19,216 nucleotides of DNA from the NCBI GenBank assembly GCA_945980015.1, contig CAMFQI010000001.1:1-19216 (forward strand), read 5' to 3'. Within the stretch, counting starts at the first letter, position 1, and the number at the start of each line of letters is the position of its first letter. Positions 7,482 through 17,442 of the stretch are shown here, in pieces. A program made the position numbers and the translations under genes. The notes under the pieces were generated by a model that was not told the origin of the DNA, searched no databases, and was given only the letters and a program-made list of their open reading frames with translations. This DNA comes from an uncultured Eubacterium sp. (lineage in GTDB: Bacteria > Bacillota > Clostridia > Oscillospirales > Acutalibacteraceae).

Positions 7482-9896
7482 CTAAGATTTCGCGTTGCGA
7501 TCAACCCATAATGGCGGCTTGCCTTGACCGATTGCTCTTCTTAAATACCTGTTTATTGAAAGAACAAATATTTTAAGCATTTCAGGAAGAGAATTTGCGT
7601 CCATTATGTAATGCGAAACTCCTTCGTCCCAATAACAGATACCAAGTTCATTGTTTTCATAAGAATATTCCAAAAGATAATCTGTTATGTCAATTCTTAC
7701 TCCACACCGAAGCATATTTAGTTCGTCATTTTTAAGTTTCAATACAATTGAAATATACGGTTTGTATGAAACATTAGACGAATTATACTTTACATGAACT
7801 ATATCCGTGTCAATATATTCTAAGAGCTGCTTCCTGTAAAAACCAATATTGCTGGGTTTTCCGGTTAATACTTTTTCAACATTCTTTCTTTCTCCATCTG
7901 TATTAATTGCTTTAAGTCTCTTATATAGTTTTTTTGTTTCTTTTTGATCCAGCGGCTTCGGCAAGTCTTTAAGAAGCAGAGATTTGCAATTATCCCAATC
8001 TTTTTTATCTAAATCAGAAACTGCCGCAAACCAGTGCTCATATAAAAATTCAACAAGACGATCAGACCTTTTATAAATCTCGTTAACTGTCCAATAATCA
8101 TTATGTGCAATTTCTTGCGCCGATGGTGAACCACTGCTATAGGAAAACTTACCTGATGCAACAGGCATATCCTTTTTTACAGGAAAACTACAATTACCAA
8201 GAGTGCTGTTTTCACTACCTGAAGACAATAGTAATAAATTACCAAGAGAATTAGTAAGTGCGTTCAATTCTTCTTCAGTATAGTTTTCAAACGCAGTATT
8301 CCAATAATCAGTTTTAGGGGTTTGCGGGAGAACATGTTCTATAGAAGTACTACTTAAGTCGTACCATGCTAATTTTTTTGTGTTGCTGTTAAAAGAATCA
8401 TTGTATTCAAACAAAAAATATGATAATCCGTTCCAACTATAATAATAATGAGTCTTTTTTTCTAAAATCTCAATAACAAAGACGTTAATTGCGTCAACAA
8501 TACGTTTTCCATTAACGCTGAGCTCATGCTTGTTTATGTCGGAAATAATGCTTTTAATTATTGGGTTGCTGTTTGATGTAGTATTATTCATTAGAGGTTT
8601 GACAGCTGTAACGAGAAAACTTAAATCATTTTTGTTTTGAGCTATTAGCTTGTTAACAAAGACAAAACGCTCGAGCGTTTCATAAAGACGAGTCTTTTCA
8701 GCTGATTCGCAAGCGTTGTCTGCAACCACAACCATCATAGCAGTATTCAAATATATATTTGAAAAACATCTGGATATGCGTTTTACCCAATATAATTCAT
8801 CATAGTTTAGATTAGATTGCACCTGTTCTGGTTTTCGCACCAAAGCCCAATAATAACTATATTTAGAAAGACTTGTTACATAGTTATTGATGTAGTTATA
8901 TGCATCTTGGTATTCTCCTGACGAAATTAAAGAATAAAACTTTCCGCTGTCAACGGCAAATTCTTTGTTAAGCAAATCGTCAATATAAGTGTCTCTAATG
9001 GTTTTGTCCATCTTACCATATGCAAGCCAATGGGCTCTTAGATATTCATCGTCAGGCAACTGATCATCGCCATAGCACAAATTTTGAAATATCTCTTTCC
9101 ATGCTTCGTTAATACTGCTCTTTAATCGAAGATCAAAACGGTTAGAATCACTTTCAAAAAAGGTTGATAAATACATCAACCTGTTTTTTAATAGTTCGAG
9201 TTTTGACAATCTCTTTCCTCTATTGTTAATAGTTTCAAAAGTAACCCTTACGTCAAAGTCATCAGTAACAAAATAAATATTAAAGACAATACGATCAATT
9301 ATTACGTCCAGGATTTCAAGCGCTGTTTTACCATTCAATTTGTGCAATTCTTTGTCAATATACTCTTTTGCAAAATTGATATTTGAAAGATAATGGTCTT
9401 CGTGTTTAAGCAATTTGTTGTTATTAAATACACGTTCTTCAAAATACTTATTAGAGCCATCTTGTCTTGTTGCGGAATAGCCGAATCTGTACATCTGATT
9501 TACAGACATACAATCGTTATATTTACTTAAATCCTGTCCCGGTAATTCTTCGGCAATATATGAGATAAGTGATTTAATTATTATTACCAAAGAAGCCATG
9601 CGTTGTTGTCCATCAACTATATAAAAAGCCGTGGTTCCCATAACAGCTTCTTGTATAAGCGCAACATTATCTGTTATTTCTTCAAGTGCAAGCATACCAG
9701 TGTAATGTTTTTTTGTTTTTGTTTTATATAAATGTAAAATATCTTTCCACAAAACAATAAACTCATTGTTCCATGAATATCCTCTTTGATAATCTGGAAC
9801 ACGAAAAACACGGTCTGAGGAAAGCAAGTCTTTAATTGTAACAATATCCGTTACCTTTTTTTCTCTATCTAAAGGATTAACACTGTTATTACTCAT
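7482..9896 (-). CDS. DUF262/DUF1524 GmrSD-like putative defence endonuclease
   Basis: A protein of 804 residues; GGAG lies 8 bases before the ATG. The N-terminal DUF262 (GmrS-like) domain shows VPDYQRGYSW (33-42), IVDGQQRM (93-100, the DGQQR nucleotide-binding/hydrolysis motif) and TFETINNRGKRLS (219-231). A helical middle follows. The C-terminal DUF1524 (GmrD-like, HNH-type) region has SIEHVLPQT (518-526), then LTNSLGNLLLLSSGSENS (547-564), giving the His and Asn of the nuclease motif. Fused GmrSD proteins are type IV restriction enzymes that cut modified phage DNA using nucleotide hydrolysis. Residues about 640-804 form an extra region I cannot assign. The gene is AT-rich, stands alone with its own promoter, and has no methyltransferase beside it, which fits a single-gene defence cargo. 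Defence activity is inferred from the family. Confidence 0.88.
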   Translation of the reverse strand: MSNNSVNPLDREKKVTDIVTIKDLLSSDRVFRVPDYQRGYSWNNEFIVLWKDILHLYKTKTKKHYTGMLALEEITDNVALIQEAVMGTTAFYIVDGQQRMASLVIIIKSLISYIAEELPGQDLSKYNDCMSVNQMYRFGYSATRQDGSNKYFEERVFNNNKLLKHEDHYLSNINFAKEYIDKELHKLNGKTALEILDVIIDRIVFNIYFVTDDFDVRVTFETINNRGKRLSKLELLKNRLMYLSTFFESDSNRFDLRLKSSINEAWKEIFQNLCYGDDQLPDDEYLRAHWLAYGKMDKTIRDTYIDDLLNKEFAVDSGKFYSLISSGEYQDAYNYINNYVTSLSKYSYYWALVRKPEQVQSNLNYDELYWVKRISRCFSNIYLNTAMMVVVADNACESAEKTRLYETLERFVFVNKLIAQNKNDLSFLVTAVKPLMNNTTSNSNPIIKSIISDINKHELSVNGKRIVDAINVFVIEILEKKTHYYYSWNGLSYFLFEYNDSFNSNTKKLAWYDLSSTSIEHVLPQTPKTDYWNTAFENYTEEELNALTNSLGNLLLLSSGSENSTLGNCSFPVKKDMPVASGKFSYSSGSPSAQEIAHNDYWTVNEIYKRSDRLVEFLYEHWFAAVSDLDKKDWDNCKSLLLKDLPKPLDQKETKKLYKRLKAINTDGERKNVEKVLTGKPSNIGFYRKQLLEYIDTDIVHVKYNSSNVSYKPYISIVLKLKNDELNMLRCGVRIDITDYLLEYSYENNELGICYWDEGVSHYIMDANSLPEMLKIFVLSINRYLRRAIGQGKPPLWVDRNAKS

Positions 9897-9928
9897 AGTT
9901 TTTTCTCCGTCCTCTTAAAACTATTAAT

Positions 9929-9958
9929 ATTATACATCAAACGATAATAAATCGTCAA
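9929..9958 (-). promoter_or_regulatory. Sigma-A promoter of the DUF262 gene
   Basis: The minus strand has TTGACG (9953-9958), 18 bases, and a perfect TATAAT (9929-9934), about 30 bases before the ATG. The spacer begins within a small inverted repeat, CGAT-TTATT-ATCG, which could bind a regulator or be chance. Confidence 0.75.
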
Positions 9959-9959
9959 T

Positions 9960-9981
9960 AAAAAAAGTCCGCAAGAGCGGA
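9960..9981 (-). terminator. Minus-strand intrinsic terminator upstream of the DUF262 promoter
   Basis: On the minus strand, TCCGC-TCTT-GCGGA (9968-9981) is followed by CTTTTTTT. It ends just before the -35 box of the DUF262 gene. No minus-strand gene is visible upstream between 9982 and 10247, so it either insulates the defence gene or ends an unseen short transcript. Confidence 0.7.
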
Positions 9982-10032
9982 TGCCTGAAAAACGCATTAT
10001 ATGATATTCATCCTGTTATATTCAACAATGCA

Positions 10033-10062
10033 TAAAGGAGGAGTGTGTACGCCCCTCCTTTA
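10033..10062. repeat. Inverted repeat TAAAGGAGG / CCTCCTTTA
   Basis: Perfect 9-base arms (10033-10041 and 10054-10062) flank a 12-base loop, and the arms are an SD consensus and its complement. Weaker structures nearby are TTGAGC/GCTCAA (about 10082-10113) and the 12-base palindrome TTGCAATTGCAA (10147-10158), which lies upstream of the next promoter. No convincing gene is seen in the 350-base gap 9897-10247 beyond these and the flanking promoters. Confidence 0.5.
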
Positions 10063-10185
10063 CCCTTAGATACTTTTTTGTTGAGCTTTACTGTAATATT
10101 TTGCTCAATGCGTCATTTTATATACCTAAAACAAAATGGAATATTTTTGCAATTGCAACGAGTTCGCTTTGATTTTAATAGAACA

Positions 10186-10213
10186 TTGACAATAGGATTA
10201 TTAATGTTATAAT
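10186..10213 (+). promoter_or_regulatory. Sigma-A promoter of the RadC-like gene
   Basis: A consensus TTGACA (10186-10191) and TATAAT (10208-10213) are 16 bases apart. The ATG lies 34 bases after the -10. The palindrome TTGCAATTGCAA sits 28 bases before the -35. Confidence 0.85.
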
Positions 10214-10247
10214 TAAGTTAGAATAGTATTTTTTGGAGGGGAAGCAA

Positions 10248-10925
10248 ATGGCGACAGTCGGCAGAGAAGGTCACAGAGCCCGCCTCAGACAACAGTATTT
10301 TGATATAGGAGCCGAGGATATCAGCACAAGAACATTGCTTGAGCTATACCTATCTCTTACCGTACCCAGAAGGGATGTAAAAGAGCTTCTCTACGCCGTA
10401 ATGAACAAATTTCCTACCTTGACCGAGCTTTTCAATGCGTCCTACGACGAGCTTATGAGCGTTAAACATATGCAAAATGCAACGGCAATGTCAATTCTCA
10501 CGCTCAACGAGATTTTGAAAAGAAGTGAAAAAAATGAGAGCAGGCTTGACAAAGCTATCAAAAGGCTGATATACGCACGTTCAATTTTTGAGAATGACTA
10601 TGAGCACGAGGGAATAGCGGCAGTATTTATGACAGGCGACCTTGCCGTAAAGGACACTATAACGCTTCACGATTTTTCTCTAAGCAACAAATCGACTGTT
10701 TCAAAAATAACAAATGCTGCCGTTCAAAGCAACGCTTCAAGCGTTTATCTTGTCCACTTTACCTCCGGCAATGATGCCGAGGTGTCCGAGGATATTGATT
10801 TTTTGTGTGATCTAAAATACTCGCTTCGTCAGTTAAATATTGAAATTATAGACTATATTATTCTTTCCGGCTCGAACGATATAATTATGTCCCAAAACGA
10901 AAAGCTTCGGCTTTTGCTAGCTTAG
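10248..10925 (+). CDS. RadC-like protein with degenerate JAMM site
   Basis: A protein of 225 residues. The ATG at 10248 follows GGAGGGG (10235-10241) by 6 bases; a TTG further upstream overlaps that SD and is rejected. Residues about 25-92 are the helix-hairpin-helix part of RadC/UPF0758: TLLELYLSLTVPRRDVKELL, then FPTLTELFNAS and ELMSVKHM. Residues about 120-215 follow the RadC JAB fold (SSVYLVHFTSGNDAEVSEDID, then LNIEIIDYIILSGSND). The usual HNHPSG is replaced by VHFTSG, so both metal-binding His are gone, while the later Asp (D182) remains. Loss of metal binding makes peptidase-type catalysis unlikely. The role of RadC itself is unsettled, and a structural or DNA-binding role is only a guess here. 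Confidence 0.8.
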   Translation: MATVGREGHRARLRQQYFDIGAEDISTRTLLELYLSLTVPRRDVKELLYAVMNKFPTLTELFNASYDELMSVKHMQNATAMSILTLNEILKRSEKNESRLDKAIKRLIYARSIFENDYEHEGIAAVFMTGDLAVKDTITLHDFSLSNKSTVSKITNAAVQSNASSVYLVHFTSGNDAEVSEDIDFLCDLKYSLRQLNIEIIDYIILSGSNDIIMSQNEKLRLLLA

Positions 10926-11065: not shown

Positions 11066-12415
11066 ATGAACGAATATATTGAAAGGGTTATTGCGACTGT
11101 TGAACGCAGAGACAATGCAAAGCCCGAATTTATCCAATGTGTAAAAGAGGTTTACAGATCGCTCGAAGCTGTTATTGAGGAGCATCCGGAATACGTTGAG
11201 GACGACCTGCTTTCAAGAATGGCGGAGCCTGACAGACTGATTACATTCCGTGTTGCTTGGGTTGATGATAACGGAAAAACGCAAATTAACCGTGGATATC
11301 GTGTTCAGTTTAATTCGGCTATCGGTCCTTACAAGGGTGGCTTGCGCTTCCATCCGAGTGTAAACGGCTCAATTATGTACTTCTTAGGCTTTGAGCAAAC
11401 CTTCAAAAACTCGCTTACAGGTCTTCCTATGGGCGGTGCAAAGGGCGGCTCGGACTTCGACCCGAGAGGAAGAAGCAAGGGCGAAATTATGAGATTTTGC
11501 CAGGCGTTTATGACGGAGCTTTACCGCCATATCGGTCACAATATCGACGTTCCGGCAGGTGACATCGGCGTAGGCGGACGTGAGATAGGCTATCTTTTCG
11601 GTCAGTACAAGCGTATTTGCGACACCTTTGAAAACGGCGTTATTACCGGCAAGGGACTGTCATACGGCGGCTCGCTCATTCGTGCCGAGGCAACAGGTTA
11701 TGGTGCAGTTTACTATACTCAAGAGGTTTTGAAGCACGAAAACGACACTATTGAGGGCAAAACAGTTGCAATTTCCGGCTTCGGCAACGTTGCTTGGGGT
11801 GCTTGCAAAAAGCTCGCCGAATTAGGCGCAAAGCCTGTTACGATTTCAGGTCCGGACGGTTATGTTTATGACGAGGACGGCATTATTACAGAAGAAAAAA
11901 TCAATTATCTTTTGGAAATGCGTGCTTCCGGCAGAGACAGATGCGAGGATTATGCCGACAAATTCGGTGTTCCGTTCTTCAAGGGCGAAAAGCCGTGGGG
12001 CGTAAAGGTTGATATCGCTATGCCTTGCGCAACTCAAAATGAGGTTGACCTTGAGCAAGCAAAGAAAATTATTGCAAACGGTACAAAATACTATATTGAG
12101 GTTGCAAATATGCCGACAACCGAGGACGCTCTCAATCTCTTTATTGATACCGAGGGTGTTATCGTTGCACCGTCAAAGGCAGTAAACGCAGGCGGCGTTT
12201 GTGTTTCGGGTCTTGAAATGAGCCAGAACAGTCAGCGACTTTCATGGACTGCCGAGGAGGTTGACAAACGACTTCATCAGGCTATGATTGATATACATAA
12301 GCACTCCGTTGAGGCGGCTGAAAAATACAATCTCGGCTATAATCTTGTTGCCGGTGCAAACATTGCAGGCTTTGAAAAGGTTGCACAGGCAATGATGGAA
12401 CAGGGTATTTACTAA
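11066..12415 (+). CDS. gdhA: Glutamate dehydrogenase, hexameric 450-residue type
   Basis: A protein of 449 residues, normal for the bacterial small hexameric enzyme; GAGAGGG lies 4 bases before the ATG. It interconverts glutamate and 2-oxoglutarate plus ammonia with a nicotinamide cofactor in the cytoplasm. Substrate and catalytic residues are in place: K90 in GPYKGGLRFHP, K126 in LPMGGAKGG, and D166 in PAGDIGVGGREIG. The Rossmann domain has SGFGNVAWG (237-245). The stretch VTISGPDGYVYDEDG closely resembles the Clostridium symbiosum enzyme as I remember it, which is NAD-dependent, so NAD is favoured over NADP but not proven. The leader 10926-11065 holds no clear promoter; a terminator-like hairpin follows at 12506-12555. 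Confidence 0.95.
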   Translation: MNEYIERVIATVERRDNAKPEFIQCVKEVYRSLEAVIEEHPEYVEDDLLSRMAEPDRLITFRVAWVDDNGKTQINRGYRVQFNSAIGPYKGGLRFHPSVNGSIMYFLGFEQTFKNSLTGLPMGGAKGGSDFDPRGRSKGEIMRFCQAFMTELYRHIGHNIDVPAGDIGVGGREIGYLFGQYKRICDTFENGVITGKGLSYGGSLIRAEATGYGAVYYTQEVLKHENDTIEGKTVAISGFGNVAWGACKKLAELGAKPVTISGPDGYVYDEDGIITEEKINYLLEMRASGRDRCEDYADKFGVPFFKGEKPWGVKVDIAMPCATQNEVDLEQAKKIIANGTKYYIEVANMPTTEDALNLFIDTEGVIVAPSKAVNAGGVCVSGLEMSQNSQRLSWTAEEVDKRLHQAMIDIHKHSVEAAEKYNLGYNLVAGANIAGFEKVAQAMMEQGIY

Positions 12416-12438
12416 GCCGATTATTAGCAAAACGAACT

Positions 12439-12759
12439 TGCCGGCGGCATATATCACTTTGCGATTGTATCGCAAAATTTCACATTCCCGCAAGGGAATA
12501 TATCACTAAAAAAAGGAGACACTTCGTAAAGAAGTTGTCTCCATTTGTTTTTTAGATAAAAATAAGAATGTTAAGTGATATTGTGAGACAGGTCTCACAG
12601 TGATATTTTGCGTTATCACGCAAAGTGATATTGAAACTTGCAGTTTCAGTGATATTATATTCGCCCCAAAAACTCGCGAAGCGAATATAACTTGGGCATA
12701 GCCCAAATATAACTGCGAAGCAATATCACTCGCCACAAGGCGAATATAACTGTGGCACC
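12439..12759. repeat. Array of short palindromes joined by GTGATATT / AATATCAC linkers
   Basis: This fills the gdhA to pseudo-sortase gap. Successive stems: TGCCG-G-CGGCA (12439-12449), TTTGCGA/TCGCAAA (12458-12476), ATTCCC/GGGAAT (12484-12499), a large stem (12506-12555), GTGAGAC/GTCTCAC (12583-12598), TTGCGT/ACGCAA (12608-12623), GAAACT/AGTTTC (12633-12647), a central ATATTCGC/GCGAATAT (12657-12688), TTGGGC/GCCCAA (12692-12706), TGC/GCA (12714-12722) and TCGCC/GGCGA (12730-12743). Before the large stem the linkers read ATATCAC or ATTTCAC. From 12575 to 12656 they read GTGATATT four times. After the centre they read ATATAAC, ATATAAC, ATATCAC and ATATAAC. Stem sequences differ while linkers are kept. 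It has no open frame and no transposase nearby. I have seen similar arrays in clostridial intergenic regions but know no accepted name. Confidence 0.88.
12506..12555. terminator. Large hairpin in the array, likely gdhA terminator
   Basis: GGAGACA-CTTC (12515-12525) pairs with GAAG and TGTCTCC (12531-12542) around GTAAA with one bulged T. The stem is extended by CTAAAAAA against TTTTTTAG on the outside. A T-rich run follows on both strands, so it can stop transcription from gdhA and from the minus-strand operon. Confidence 0.75.
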
Positions 12760-12765
12760 TTTTTA

Positions 12766-13746
12766 TTATTTGTATTCCGGTTGCCATTTCGACGAGAGCC
12801 AATACGGATTATGCTCCTCGTTTTCGTCATACCAAATTTGCGGATAATGAACCTTTTTATTCGCAACGGCATCGGTAATAGGATTGATTTCGCCGTCGAC
12901 TCTTTCGCAGAGAATGACAAATCTGAATTGCTCCATAAAATCACTGTCAGCGCTTATCGTGAGATACTGCGATGTGTACGAAAGATTGCTCACCGCATCA
13001 AAAAGGCTTCTCGTAAGCACTCTGTCTTCAAAATCGTCGAAGCTGTCCTCTGTCAGCGTTCCGCATAAATTATACGGAAAAGCATAGCCGTTGTCATCAT
13101 TCGGATTTGTATTTACATAGTAAGCGCAAACAACCTGATACTTAACCGTATTTCCGTAAAGGTCTGTAAACGCAACCTCTTGATTTGCGTTATTGTATTT
13201 TTCCGCAGTTGAATATGCACTCTCAATATCGGCATTTTTTGAATAAATCGTGATTGAACGAAACTGCGGCGTTTCATTCGCTCTGCTTCCGTTTTCAAAA
13301 TGTGGACTGAGCGAATCTTTTTCCGAAGAAACAAAAAATTCTGCATTTGAATCCGGTATTTCAAGCTTTCCGACAACTCTTTGATTCTCTCCGTAGGCGT
13401 CGCAAAAATCCTCGGCTATGCCCTTTGGAAAATCAATACCGTACTTTTCCTCATAAGGCTTCAGGTATGCAGTTGAGATGTATTGAATAACGCCGAATAC
13501 AACGCCTATAACAACTACCGCCGCAACGCAGATTATTACAATCGCCTTTATAGGCGGTTTTTTCTTTTTTGTCAACGCCTTTTCTGTTTTATCTTCACAA
13601 GGCTCCGATTTTTTCGCAGGCTCAATTTCATCAAGATAAGAAACGTTTTGAGCCTTTTTTACATTTTCATTTTTGATTGAATCTAAAATATCGTCAAGCT
13701 CGGCGTCCTTGAGCACCTTGTCGAGCTTATCGTCAAATTCCTTCAT
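12766..13746 (-). CDS. Sortase-B-like membrane protein lacking catalytic His and Cys
   Basis: A protein of 326 residues that starts in a TAATG overlap with the thiI stop, so the two are coupled. Residues 1-65 are charged and cytoplasmic, about 66-90 form one membrane helix, and the rest lies outside. The outer domain follows class B sortases in order: VVGKLEIPDSNAEFFV, then SITIYSKN (164-171), YSTAEKYNN, VKYQVVCAYYVN, FEDRVLTRSLFD (239-250), QYLTISAD (260-267) and FRFVILCERV. In active sortases these sites read IYGHN and LTLSTC; here the His is K170 and the Cys is D267, while the Arg (R275) stays. The acidic C-terminal tail is unlike usual sortases. It is probably a pseudoenzyme or binding protein at the cell surface. 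The family call rests on pattern memory, not a profile search. Confidence 0.62.
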   Translation of the reverse strand: MKEFDDKLDKVLKDAELDDILDSIKNENVKKAQNVSYLDEIEPAKKSEPCEDKTEKALTKKKKPPIKAIVIICVAAVVVIGVVFGVIQYISTAYLKPYEEKYGIDFPKGIAEDFCDAYGENQRVVGKLEIPDSNAEFFVSSEKDSLSPHFENGSRANETPQFRSITIYSKNADIESAYSTAEKYNNANQEVAFTDLYGNTVKYQVVCAYYVNTNPNDDNGYAFPYNLCGTLTEDSFDDFEDRVLTRSLFDAVSNLSYTSQYLTISADSDFMEQFRFVILCERVDGEINPITDAVANKKVHYPQIWYDENEEHNPYWLSSKWQPEYK

Positions 13747-15127: not shown

Positions 15128-16256
15128 TAGGATAATTTTTTGTTGTTTCCTTTAACGCTTCAACCAAAGCGTCAATGTCCTGCTTTGTTGTAAATCTGCA
15201 AAAACTTACACGGATTGATTTTTCAATTATTTTATCACTTAGTTTCATTGCAGTCAGCACATGACTTTTTTTGCCCTTTGCACAAGCGGAGCCGTTGCTG
15301 ACATACACGCCGTACTGCGACGAAAGATGCTGAACAATCGTCTGGCTCGTCATAAAGGTCGGTACATAAATATTTAAAATATAGTCGGAGGAATCCGTTG
15401 AGTTATTAAAGCTAACGCCGTCAATTTTTGAAAGCTCCTGTCTTGCATAAGCATTAAGCTCGCTTATTTTTTTACTGCTTTCGTTAAAATCGGGAATTTG
15501 ACCCACCGCAACTCCGAAGCCGGCTATAAGCGGACTTGACTGTGTGCCGGGACGAATTTTCTTTTCCTGCTCACCGCCGTATGTACGTGGAATAATTCTT
15601 GCGCCCTTTTTCAAATACAAAGCTCCCACGCCCTTGGGTCCGTGGATTTTATGCGCCGTAATGCTTATCATATCCGCACCCAGCTTCGCAGGTTTAACCT
15701 CAACCTTACCGAACGCCTGAACACAGTCAATATGAATAAGTGCAGGTGCCTTTGCCCTTTCAACCGCTTTTTTTATTGTCTTAACGGGCAAAACCGAGCC
15801 GACCTCGTTATTAATATACATCATCGTGACCAATATCGTGTCGCCGTTTACCGCGTCAAATATTTGCTCCTCGGTTATATTTCCCTGTTTATCGGGCATA
15901 AGGCGAACAACCTCGAAGCCCTCTTTTTCAAGCTGTGCCGTTGCTTCAAGAACACTTTCGTGCTCAATGGCGGTTGTGACTATTCTCCTGCCCTTTCGTC
16001 TGTTTGCATAAGCCGCACCGAAGATTGCAAGATTATTCGCCTCAGTTGCTCCCGAGGTGAAGTATATCTCCTCCGCCTGACAGGACAGAGACTTTGCTAC
16101 GGTCTCTCTTGCAAGACGCATTTCATCATTAGCCGTCAAGCCCTCCTTGTGAAACGAGGACGGATTTCCGAACTTGTAGACAAGCATTTCGTAAACCTTG
16201 TCGGCAACCTCCTTTGTCGGCTTTGTCGTTGCACTGTTATCTAAATAAACACTCAT
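15120..16256 (-). CDS. Cysteine desulfurase, NifS/IscS-like
   Basis: A protein of 378 residues starting in a TAATG overlap with the HAD-Nudix gene. It is a PLP enzyme that takes sulfur from cysteine as a protein persulfide. Visible marks are YLDNSATT (4-11), TSGATEANN (67-75), the ring-stacking H99 in IEHES, D177 in HIDCVQAFGK, the PLP lysine K203 in SITAHKIHGPKG, RPGTQ (235-239), and the catalytic C325 in SNGSACAKG. Its place just before thiI suggests it supplies sulfur for 4-thiouridine, as dedicated NifS-like desulfurases do in Bacillus. The last residues (Arg, Gln) and the TAA stop are encoded by the right end of a MITE; before insertion the end would have been ...NYPI followed by TAA. 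The core is complete, so it is probably active. Confidence 0.94.
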   Translation of the reverse strand: MSVYLDNSATTKPTKEVADKVYEMLVYKFGNPSSFHKEGLTANDEMRLARETVAKSLSCQAEEIYFTSGATEANNLAIFGAAYANRRKGRRIVTTAIEHESVLEATAQLEKEGFEVVRLMPDKQGNITEEQIFDAVNGDTILVTMMYINNEVGSVLPVKTIKKAVERAKAPALIHIDCVQAFGKVEVKPAKLGADMISITAHKIHGPKGVGALYLKKGARIIPRTYGGEQEKKIRPGTQSSPLIAGFGVAVGQIPDFNESSKKISELNAYARQELSKIDGVSFNNSTDSSDYILNIYVPTFMTSQTIVQHLSSQYGVYVSNGSACAKGKKSHVLTAMKLSDKIIEKSIRVSFCRFTTKQDIDALVEALKETTKNYPRQ

Positions 16257-17428
16257 TATTTGCTTCTTAATTCCTTTAATTTCATTGCCGCAACAATAGT
16301 TTTTGCGTCCTTAATTTCACCTGACATAATCTTTGAAATCAAGGTTGAAAGCTTCATTTTGCAAACCTGCAAAAACTCATCCTCGTCAAGTTCCTGCTCA
16401 ACAAATGTCGGATTCACGCAGGCATACAAGCGAATAATTTCGTTTGTATAGCCGGGCGACGGATAAACCTCACCGAGCGGCTTTAATTCATCACATACTG
16501 CTCCGCATTCCTCACGAAGCTCTCTCATAGCGGCGTCAAGCGGATCCTCGTCCTTTTCAAGCTTGCCCGCCGGAATTTCATAAATCGTTTCCTTATATGG
16601 ATATCTAAACTGGCGCACCAAAACGACCTCGTCATCATCATTTACGCAGATAACACCTACTCCGCCCGGATGGTCAACGCATTCTCTTTGAGCCGGTAAA
16701 TCGTTACAAAGAGTGATATCGTCCAAATGCACGGTAATAACCTTACCGCTGAAAATTCCCTGAACATTCTCTGTTGCCTCGTAAAGCCCGAGTGCAATAT
16801 TCTCAACGTCGTCAATCTTGTCAATAATATATTTTGCACCGCTTTCTATAAGCTCAAACTTCGTACCGAAGCCCCAAAGCACGCCAACGCTGTCAACACC
16901 GCACTCCCTCGCTCCGTCGATATCATAAAACCTGTCACCCACCATAAGCGCCTCGCTCGGCTCAACACCAAGCTCAACGAGGCAACGGTCAATAATACTC
17001 TGCTTTGATTCGCAGTCGGCATTAAAGCTCACGGCACTCACGCAGTCAAACATATCACGCAAATCAGCCTTTATGAGCAGCTCTTCAACGTAGTTAATCG
17101 GCTTTGACGAAGCAATTCCGAGCAGTATTCCGTCATTCTTCAGCCTTTGAAGAAGCTGCGCAATGCCGTCATAAAACTCACTTTCGTACAGTCCGATATT
17201 TGTATATCTCTCACGGTATTTTTTCACGAGCTTCTCGGCGTCTGCGGCGCTTTGCTCAAACCTTTCCTGAAATGTCACAAGAAGCGGCGGACCGATGAAA
17301 AAATCAAGTTCCTCCCATTCGGGCGCAGGAATATTAAATGCGTCAAGCGCATATTTTGCACTCTTTTTTACGCCAATACCCGTGTCGCACAATGTTCCGT
17401 CAAAGTCGAATATTACTGCTTTTTTCAT
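16256..17428 (-). CDS. HAD phosphatase fused to ADP-ribose-type Nudix hydrolase
   Basis: A protein of 390 residues. The ATG at 17428 is chosen because AGAGG lies 8 bases upstream; a GTG three codons earlier overlaps that SD. Residues 1-215 are a HAD phosphatase of the phosphoglycolate type: FDFDGTLCD (7-15, nucleophile D8 and D10), IASSKP (105-110) and MVGDRFYDIDGA (162-173). Residues about 225-390 are a Nudix domain: VVLVRQFRYPYKETIYEIPA precedes the box G288, E294, R302, E303, E306, E307, G309. The RQFRYP and EIPAGK wording is typical of ADP-ribose pyrophosphatases. A fused enzyme could cleave ADP-ribose and dephosphorylate the ribose-5-phosphate, but that link is inference. It lies 14 bases after the thioesterase gene and overlaps the desulfurase start by one base. 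Confidence 0.88.
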   Translation of the reverse strand: MKKAVIFDFDGTLCDTGIGVKKSAKYALDAFNIPAPEWEELDFFIGPPLLVTFQERFEQSAADAEKLVKKYRERYTNIGLYESEFYDGIAQLLQRLKNDGILLGIASSKPINYVEELLIKADLRDMFDCVSAVSFNADCESKQSIIDRCLVELGVEPSEALMVGDRFYDIDGARECGVDSVGVLWGFGTKFELIESGAKYIIDKIDDVENIALGLYEATENVQGIFSGKVITVHLDDITLCNDLPAQRECVDHPGGVGVICVNDDDEVVLVRQFRYPYKETIYEIPAGKLEKDEDPLDAAMRELREECGAVCDELKPLGEVYPSPGYTNEIIRLYACVNPTFVEQELDEDEFLQVCKMKLSTLISKIMSGEIKDAKTIVAAMKLKELRSK

Positions 17429-17442
17429 TAGTACCACCTCTT

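Follow-up and report, generated by a model that had tools for sequence, protein, structure and literature searches.

A composite hairpin array behind gdhA in an uncultured Eubacterium sp.: a probable copy of a dispersed, IVP-linked DNA element

The array between gdhA and its convergent neighbour

The window analyzed here, a 19,216-nt stretch of DNA from an uncultured Eubacterium sp., carries an array of short linkers and hairpins between gdhA, encoding glutamate dehydrogenase (11066–12415, plus strand; Pfam PF00208 and PF02812), and a convergent open reading frame (ORF) without a Pfam match (12766–13746, minus strand), with the 3' ends of both genes facing the array. By direct reading, the array holds eleven linkers of 7 nt each, GTGATAT and close variants. 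Within a block, successive linkers enclose one hairpin, the stem sequences are unrelated, and the blocks are inverted relative to each other. Elsewhere in the window, a single 393-aa protein with HAD hydrolase and NUDIX domains is encoded at 16256–17437, and a GmrSD-type restriction endonuclease gene lies near a RadC-like gene at 7482–10925.

A terminator-like hairpin (12508–12555, plus strand; stem 12515–12542), flanked by an A-run and a T-run, separates a left-hand half-array from a more complete right-hand element (12574–12750); copies elsewhere are, by eye, likewise bordered by terminator-like hairpins. The left half-array (12439–12506, minus strand) contains three linkers (12451–12457, 12477–12483 and 12500–12506) and the hairpins 12439–12449, 12458–12476 and 12484–12499, and is matched at 12430–12508 by the Rfam Gut-1 model (47.5 bits). 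Similar stretches of about 60 bases occur on three contigs of the same genome (C4, C8 and C32, at 94, 85 and 82%). To the right of the divide, the plus block (12574–12655, plus strand), evident in the sequence and recovered by a linker-hairpin-linker detector, comprises four GTGATAT linkers (12575–12581, 12600–12606, 12625–12631 and 12649–12655) and three hairpins (12582–12599, 12607–12624 and 12632–12648), with a Gut-1 match at 12573–12660 (36.5 bits). The minus block (12674–12750, minus strand) has linkers at 12685–12691, 12707–12713, 12723–12729 and 12744–12750 and a Gut-1 match at 12680–12752 (43.4 bits); its hairpins 12674–12684 and 12714–12722 carry c(GAA)g loops. The original prediction had described a central ATATTCGC/GCGAATAT hairpin in this array. 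This is better described as a long-range pairing than as a local hairpin: the arm TTATATTCGCC (12655–12665, plus strand) is the perfect complement of GGCGAATATAA (12739–12749, plus strand), and these 11-nt arms enclose hairpins, a layout that inspection by eye also showed in relatives.

Against 2.17 expected, the window holds 11 exact copies of GTGATAT; none of 200 dinucleotide shuffles reached this count, and seven of the 11 copies fall within 12451–12729. Furthermore, the detector found four units and one array in the window, compared with two units and no array in 200 block-shuffled windows together. The predicted array, with its near-constant linkers, unrelated stems and inverted blocks, is thus real and enriched over shuffled sequence.

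Distribution, placement and palindromes in relatives

All three Gut-1 matches of the window lie below the 50-bit cut-off of RF01706, an entry that Rfam types as sRNA. The genome of the window, which is 74% complete, holds 14 matches at E up to 1, a loose limit at which four of 14 control genomes also match, none of them over the cut-off; two of the 14 own-genome matches exceed it (58.5 and 55.1 bits). At E 0.001, matches were found in 31 of 60 genomes (own included), 25 of them over the cut-off, and in one of the 14 control genomes, not over the cut-off. Matches ranged from 0 to 48 per genome, and presence was patchy even inside one genus, with 29 of the 60 related genomes lacking a match. The copies in the own genome and in relatives run counter to the possibility, raised with the original prediction, that the array has no others. 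Inspection by eye of 28 other same-genus loci whose sequence could be read showed no array after gdhA, and the gdhA locus of one relative (G013) holds a remnant, a single linker-hairpin.

Dispersal is concluded because near-identical copies occupy unrelated loci: two copies in one relative (G002) share 98.5% identity over 202 bp between unlike flanks. Among 28 tRNA-adjacent elements, identity was no higher for copies behind the same tRNA (0.5675, 27 pairs) than for copies behind different tRNAs (0.5665, 351 pairs; p = 0.86). At the tRNA-Met/tRNA-Glu locus, an array was present in one (G013) of 26 same-genus loci with at least 100 readable bases; of 30 loci fetched, one lacked the tRNA pair and three ended early. 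Copies at unrelated loci and empty sites, which are general hallmarks of mobile elements, are therefore both found in relatives, and no target duplication was established at the element copies. The predicted REP-like dispersed element with a repeated recognition word is supported by this multi-copy, patchy distribution and by the near-identical copies at unrelated loci. At one locus (L580), an element copy is, by eye, flanked on both sides by TAGTGCA-type heptamers, which would fit the entry of one type of array into another.

Viral contigs yielded 116 pattern stretches, of which nine had hairpins in both gaps, some of these being plain repeats; the same filter was passed by 58 of 120 genome-contig stretches among those listed. 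One element searched in phages gave one partial match, and the same type of search with one element in plasmids gave no match. Four viral contigs (L312, L352, L359 and L388) carry real-looking arrays, which may be host flanks of prophages. Arrays of hairpins with GTGAAAT linkers were also seen, together with IVP genes (see below), in three Akkermansia metagenome-assembled genomes (L156, L159 and L243), where they may reflect contamination.

The placement of the arrays was examined in a collection built with Gut-1 or GTGAAAT queries, tRNA not being used as a query. Of 138 distinct arrays, 40 have a tRNA gene no more than 300 nt away, and the 3' end points toward the array in 47 of the 48 tRNAs listed. 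An immediate tRNA neighbour was found for 31 of the 77 arrays for which both flanking genes were called (32 tRNAs, 31 with the 3' end facing). For tRNA adjacency in general, our own estimate from gene numbers would be a few per cent. By eye, the usual order is the CCA end of the tRNA, a terminator hairpin starting there, and then the element, whose other end often adjoins the promoter of the next gene. Within the 28 tRNA-adjacent copies, exactly four plus linkers were counted in 22, and four plus linkers with four or five minus linkers in 16. A terminator scan from crude array ends gave a weak signal, with either side positive in 43 of 115 arrays and 81 of 798 control sides positive. Three arrays (L251, L057 and L059) lie, by eye, beside what appear to be partial 3' ends of tRNA or tmRNA, as though an island had inserted between tRNA and array.

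The stems were assessed by their base pairs. In 354 hairpins of relatives, 1631 Watson-Crick, 11 G.U and 22 A.C pairs were counted, compared with 615, 50 and 7 in tRNA stems at the same loci (Fisher p = 2e-7 as read); read on the complementary strand, the array gives 22 G.U and 11 A.C pairs (p = 0.027), and the argument for DNA is weaker there. After trimming to best pairing, the pooled hairpins with TGAATT, CGATAT or TGATGT linkers gave 568 Watson-Crick, three G.U and seven A.C pairs. In addition, a C-G pair closes 275 of 335 distinct hairpins in relatives. In the ATTTCAC-first reading, 105 of 176 triloops are GNA and the 4-nt loops are mostly GNNA; in the same reading, about five of ten window hairpins fit these loops by eye. 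Loops of these GNA and GNNA types have particular stability in DNA. Because the array stems lack the G.U tolerance of RNA, it is probably as DNA that the palindromes are preserved; from the stem pair counts, the covariation that suggested RNA therefore looks like maintenance of DNA palindromes. The same lack of tolerance disfavours the earlier suggestion of an RNA processing substrate.

The linked IVP protein and its linker words

In G013, at the tRNA-Glu locus, a small ORF comes after the element, and PF05635 (23S_rRNA_IVP, also S23p; hereafter IVP) is its sole Pfam match. The solved chains closest to its product are 2rld, which is uncharacterized (E 3e-23), and then 2gsc (E 0.049). Pfam detects no catalytic domain in this protein, and IVPs are not known to have one. 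An IVP was found in 36 of the 60 genomes, including all 13 with nine or more Gut-1 matches. With kinship ignored, Gut-1 and IVP co-occur significantly (27 genomes with both, four with Gut-1 only, nine with IVP only, 20 with neither; p = 1.4e-5), the four exceptions among the 31 Gut-1 genomes being G003, G009, G017 and G050. A comparison by hand placed at least 12 IVP genes no further than 300 nt from a Gut-1 match.

For the upstream tests, 80 of 90 IVP rows were used, partial or weak rows being among the 10 left out. A fixed-linker detector recovered an array at one of 30 IVP loci, and a linker-free detector was used instead. Upstream of IVP genes, it found at least one linker-hairpin-linker triple at 39 of 80 loci and at least two at 24, compared with 15 and 7 of 80 downstream and with 9 and 2 of 300 random windows. 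Tandem 7-mers provide a second signal: a repeat lag of 7 was detected upstream of 29 of 77 IVP genes, against 2, 0, 0 and 0 for lags of 5, 6, 8 and 9, and in 1 of 240 and 0 of 70 controls. Arrays or tandem 7-mers together precede 65 of 77 IVP genes versus 8 of 88 other genes, the latter from one genus, and under a stricter rule 53 of 77 versus 4 of 88. Of 72 IVP genes, 22 have a tRNA gene in the 520 nt upstream, reading toward the IVP in every case. In other phyla, in genomes reached via our own pattern, the heptamers are less clean, with lag 7 at 11 of 29 loci, lag 8 at four, lag 6 at two and lag 9 at one. The idea of a small partner protein, anticipated earlier, is supported in relatives, but the array-linked protein is PF05635. 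At four loci (L494, L504, L521 and L524), IVP elements of two linker clades lie, by eye, 3' of an apparent rlmD-type methyltransferase gene, and an inverted copy of that gene's end forms a hairpin at L494 and L504 and, less distinctly, at L524.

The linker word follows the IVP lineage. The linker-free test supplied the labels, supplemented at a few loci by inspection; k-mers that were shifted or complementary versions of each other were counted as one. The labels were placed on a 78-IVP tree of only 125 columns, in which 41 IVPs have no label. The labels require 16 changes, against a mean of 35.7 when shuffled, and none of 200 shuffles was as low; since the genomes share ancestry, p-values throughout this analysis overstate independence. 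TGAAAT marks one supported group (99/92; eight IVPs from six genomes), as does TGAATT (99/93; six IVPs from six genomes). CGATAT requires two changes, and GTKATA, the label nearest to the words of the window, requires four. A single genome can hold several IVPs with differing words.

A pattern search of the 60 genomes found TGAATT arrays in at least 22 and CGATAT arrays in at least 20, part of the matches sitting at the IVP loci that supplied the words and many being single matches without hairpins; the reversed-pattern control gave one match per search. Among the matches listed, arrays off the IVP locus occur in at least four of the six genomes with a TGAATT-clade IVP (G002, G016, G055 and G056) and in at least three of the five with a CGATAT-clade IVP (G029, G039 and G056), the places in G052 falling outside the matches listed. 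In the same set of listed matches, the TGAATT matches of G006 are confined to its IVP locus, as are the hairpin-bearing CGATAT matches of G013, and G058 has no TGAATT match. Among the matches listed, arrays of a word were also present in genomes with no matching IVP, for TGAATT in G046 (27 matches), G052 (four) and G029 (two), and for CGATAT in G046 (43), G002 (15), G043 (14), G055 (four) and G054 (three).

The window itself contains no IVP gene, and no IVP of the matching clade was found in its 74% complete genome, where one IVP, on contig C37, is associated with a different 7-mer and a second hit, on C115, is below the cut-off. The copy in the window is at most non-autonomous, because an IVP is absent from the window and the own-genome IVP hits lie on other contigs.

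Interpretation, alternatives and significance

In relatives, the layout, the many copies at unrelated loci, the frequent placement at tRNA 3' ends, the DNA-type palindromes, the linkage of IVP and array and the agreement of word with lineage are all observed. With moderate confidence, we therefore read the array as a composite, partly decayed and probably non-autonomous copy of a dispersed, IVP-linked DNA element of the Rfam Gut-1 group. The element would fall within a broader class, the more complete members of which encode a PF05635 four-helix-bundle protein. The 7-nt linkers would be read by an IVP oligomer, to which the roughly four linkers per block may, as a guess, correspond. The variable stems would need only to form DNA hairpins that set the linkers at fixed spacing, and their sequence may drift, pairing then being restored when one arm is copied from the other. 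New copies would settle next to DNA hairpins or terminators, such as those opened by transcription. More broadly, and only tentatively at somewhat less than even confidence, PF05635/S23p proteins may be sequence-reading partners of 7-nt arrays, each lineage with its own 7-mer, in tandem or between hairpins, and may drive the spread of such arrays, Gut-1 included, behind the terminators of stable RNAs.

Among the alternatives, the best surviving, which we nevertheless regard as unlikely, is a host-useful DNA element in which hairpins behind strong terminators relieve supercoils or insulate transcription units, as BIMEs might, with IVP as a resident binder and spread as a secondary matter. Arrays that stand behind tRNA terminators and, by eye, directly before promoters would suit such a role, as would the scarcity of divergent gene pairs around them (5 of 77, against 47 of 230 other gene pairs). 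A needed function is, however, at odds with copy numbers that fall to zero in nearly half of the related genomes, and the linker labels follow IVP lineages, which also speaks against this reading.

We give very little weight to each of the remaining three alternatives. If the arrays were mere operator sites for IVP self-control and the dispersed copies passive by-products of recombination, their position directly upstream of IVP genes would be explained, but not the excess of array matches over IVP genes (48 versus 3 in G059) or the near-identical copies with unlike flanks. Gut-1 as a trans-acting structured RNA, with the array a cluster of small RNA genes, follows the sRNA typing of RF01706 but conflicts with the intolerance of G.U pairs, with both linker orientations inside one element, with stems unrelated among copies and with promoters that, by eye, point outward from the element. 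A REP/RAYT or IS200/IS605 pair, in which a Y1 (HUH) transposase moves the hairpins, recalls REPs through its hairpins, short fixed word and inverted pairing, and, in a search of 60 genomes, Y1_Tnp is indeed present in 8 of the 13 high-copy genomes (at least nine Gut-1 matches each), the own genome included. Five high-copy genomes (G059, G039, G047, G055 and G051), however, have neither Y1_Tnp nor RVT_1, and the contig C6 that carries the one own-genome Y1_Tnp above the cut-off (56.5 bits) holds none of the 14 own-genome Gut-1 matches.

As a mover, the Y1 transposase is disfavoured by its absence from 5 of 13 high-copy genomes, and a reverse transcriptase by the absence of RVT_1 from 8 of the 13, RVT_1 being present in five and missing from all five Y1-less genomes. 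A group IIC intron was set aside, as no Pfam RVT_1 was found among the eight window proteins scanned. Clustering of genes within 4 kb of arrays revealed no recurrent mobility gene and did not pick up IVP; the biggest group consisted of translated array sequence, and the second resembled a small HTH protein.

Placed beside known systems, the favoured IVP-linked DNA element shares with Gut-1 (RF01706) the linker plan (GUGAAAU) and the three-hairpin block, whereas Rfam models one half as an sRNA and that half here belongs to a dispersed DNA element that is double and inverted. REP/BIME sequences with RAYT (TnpA-REP) are alike in their short palindromes, fixed word, inverted pairs and many copies. 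REP hairpins bear a GTAG/GGAG-type tag, and the linker of the present array is GTGATAT. The gene linked here is not an HUH transposase, the stems are unrelated and there are about four linkers per block. Intervening sequences (IVS) with S23p share the PF05635 protein, and tandem heptamers precede the Coxiella IVS ORF according to PMC4990558. IVSs lie inside rRNA genes, whereas the present elements stand behind tRNA or other genes; their 7-mers are often separated by hairpins, and many copies are gene-less. The window array lies outside any 23S or 16S rRNA gene. PF05635 also resembles Avd of diversity-generating retroelements, as stated in a 2023 paper (PMC10053308), but no RVT_1 was found in 8 of the 13 high-copy genomes here.

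PMC4990558 also terms the Coxiella IVS a selfish element, notes that the S23p of a different species forms a homopentamer of four-helix bundles and has no known function, and reports an older suggestion that the IVS ORF serves mobility. The PF05635 domain is called functionally uncharacterized in a 2024 paper (PMC11270868), and among the open-access papers listed, none stated a link between arrays and IVP beyond the Coxiella heptamers. Altogether, a catalogued RNA family is recast as DNA, and an uncharacterized protein domain gains a testable partner. The old idea of IVS mobility thereby becomes a testable question, namely whether each IVP binds its own 7-mer. If the broader reading given above proves true, the orphan IVS protein would gain a function, and many short bacterial heptamer repeats would be traces left by a single mobile class for which no transposase is known.
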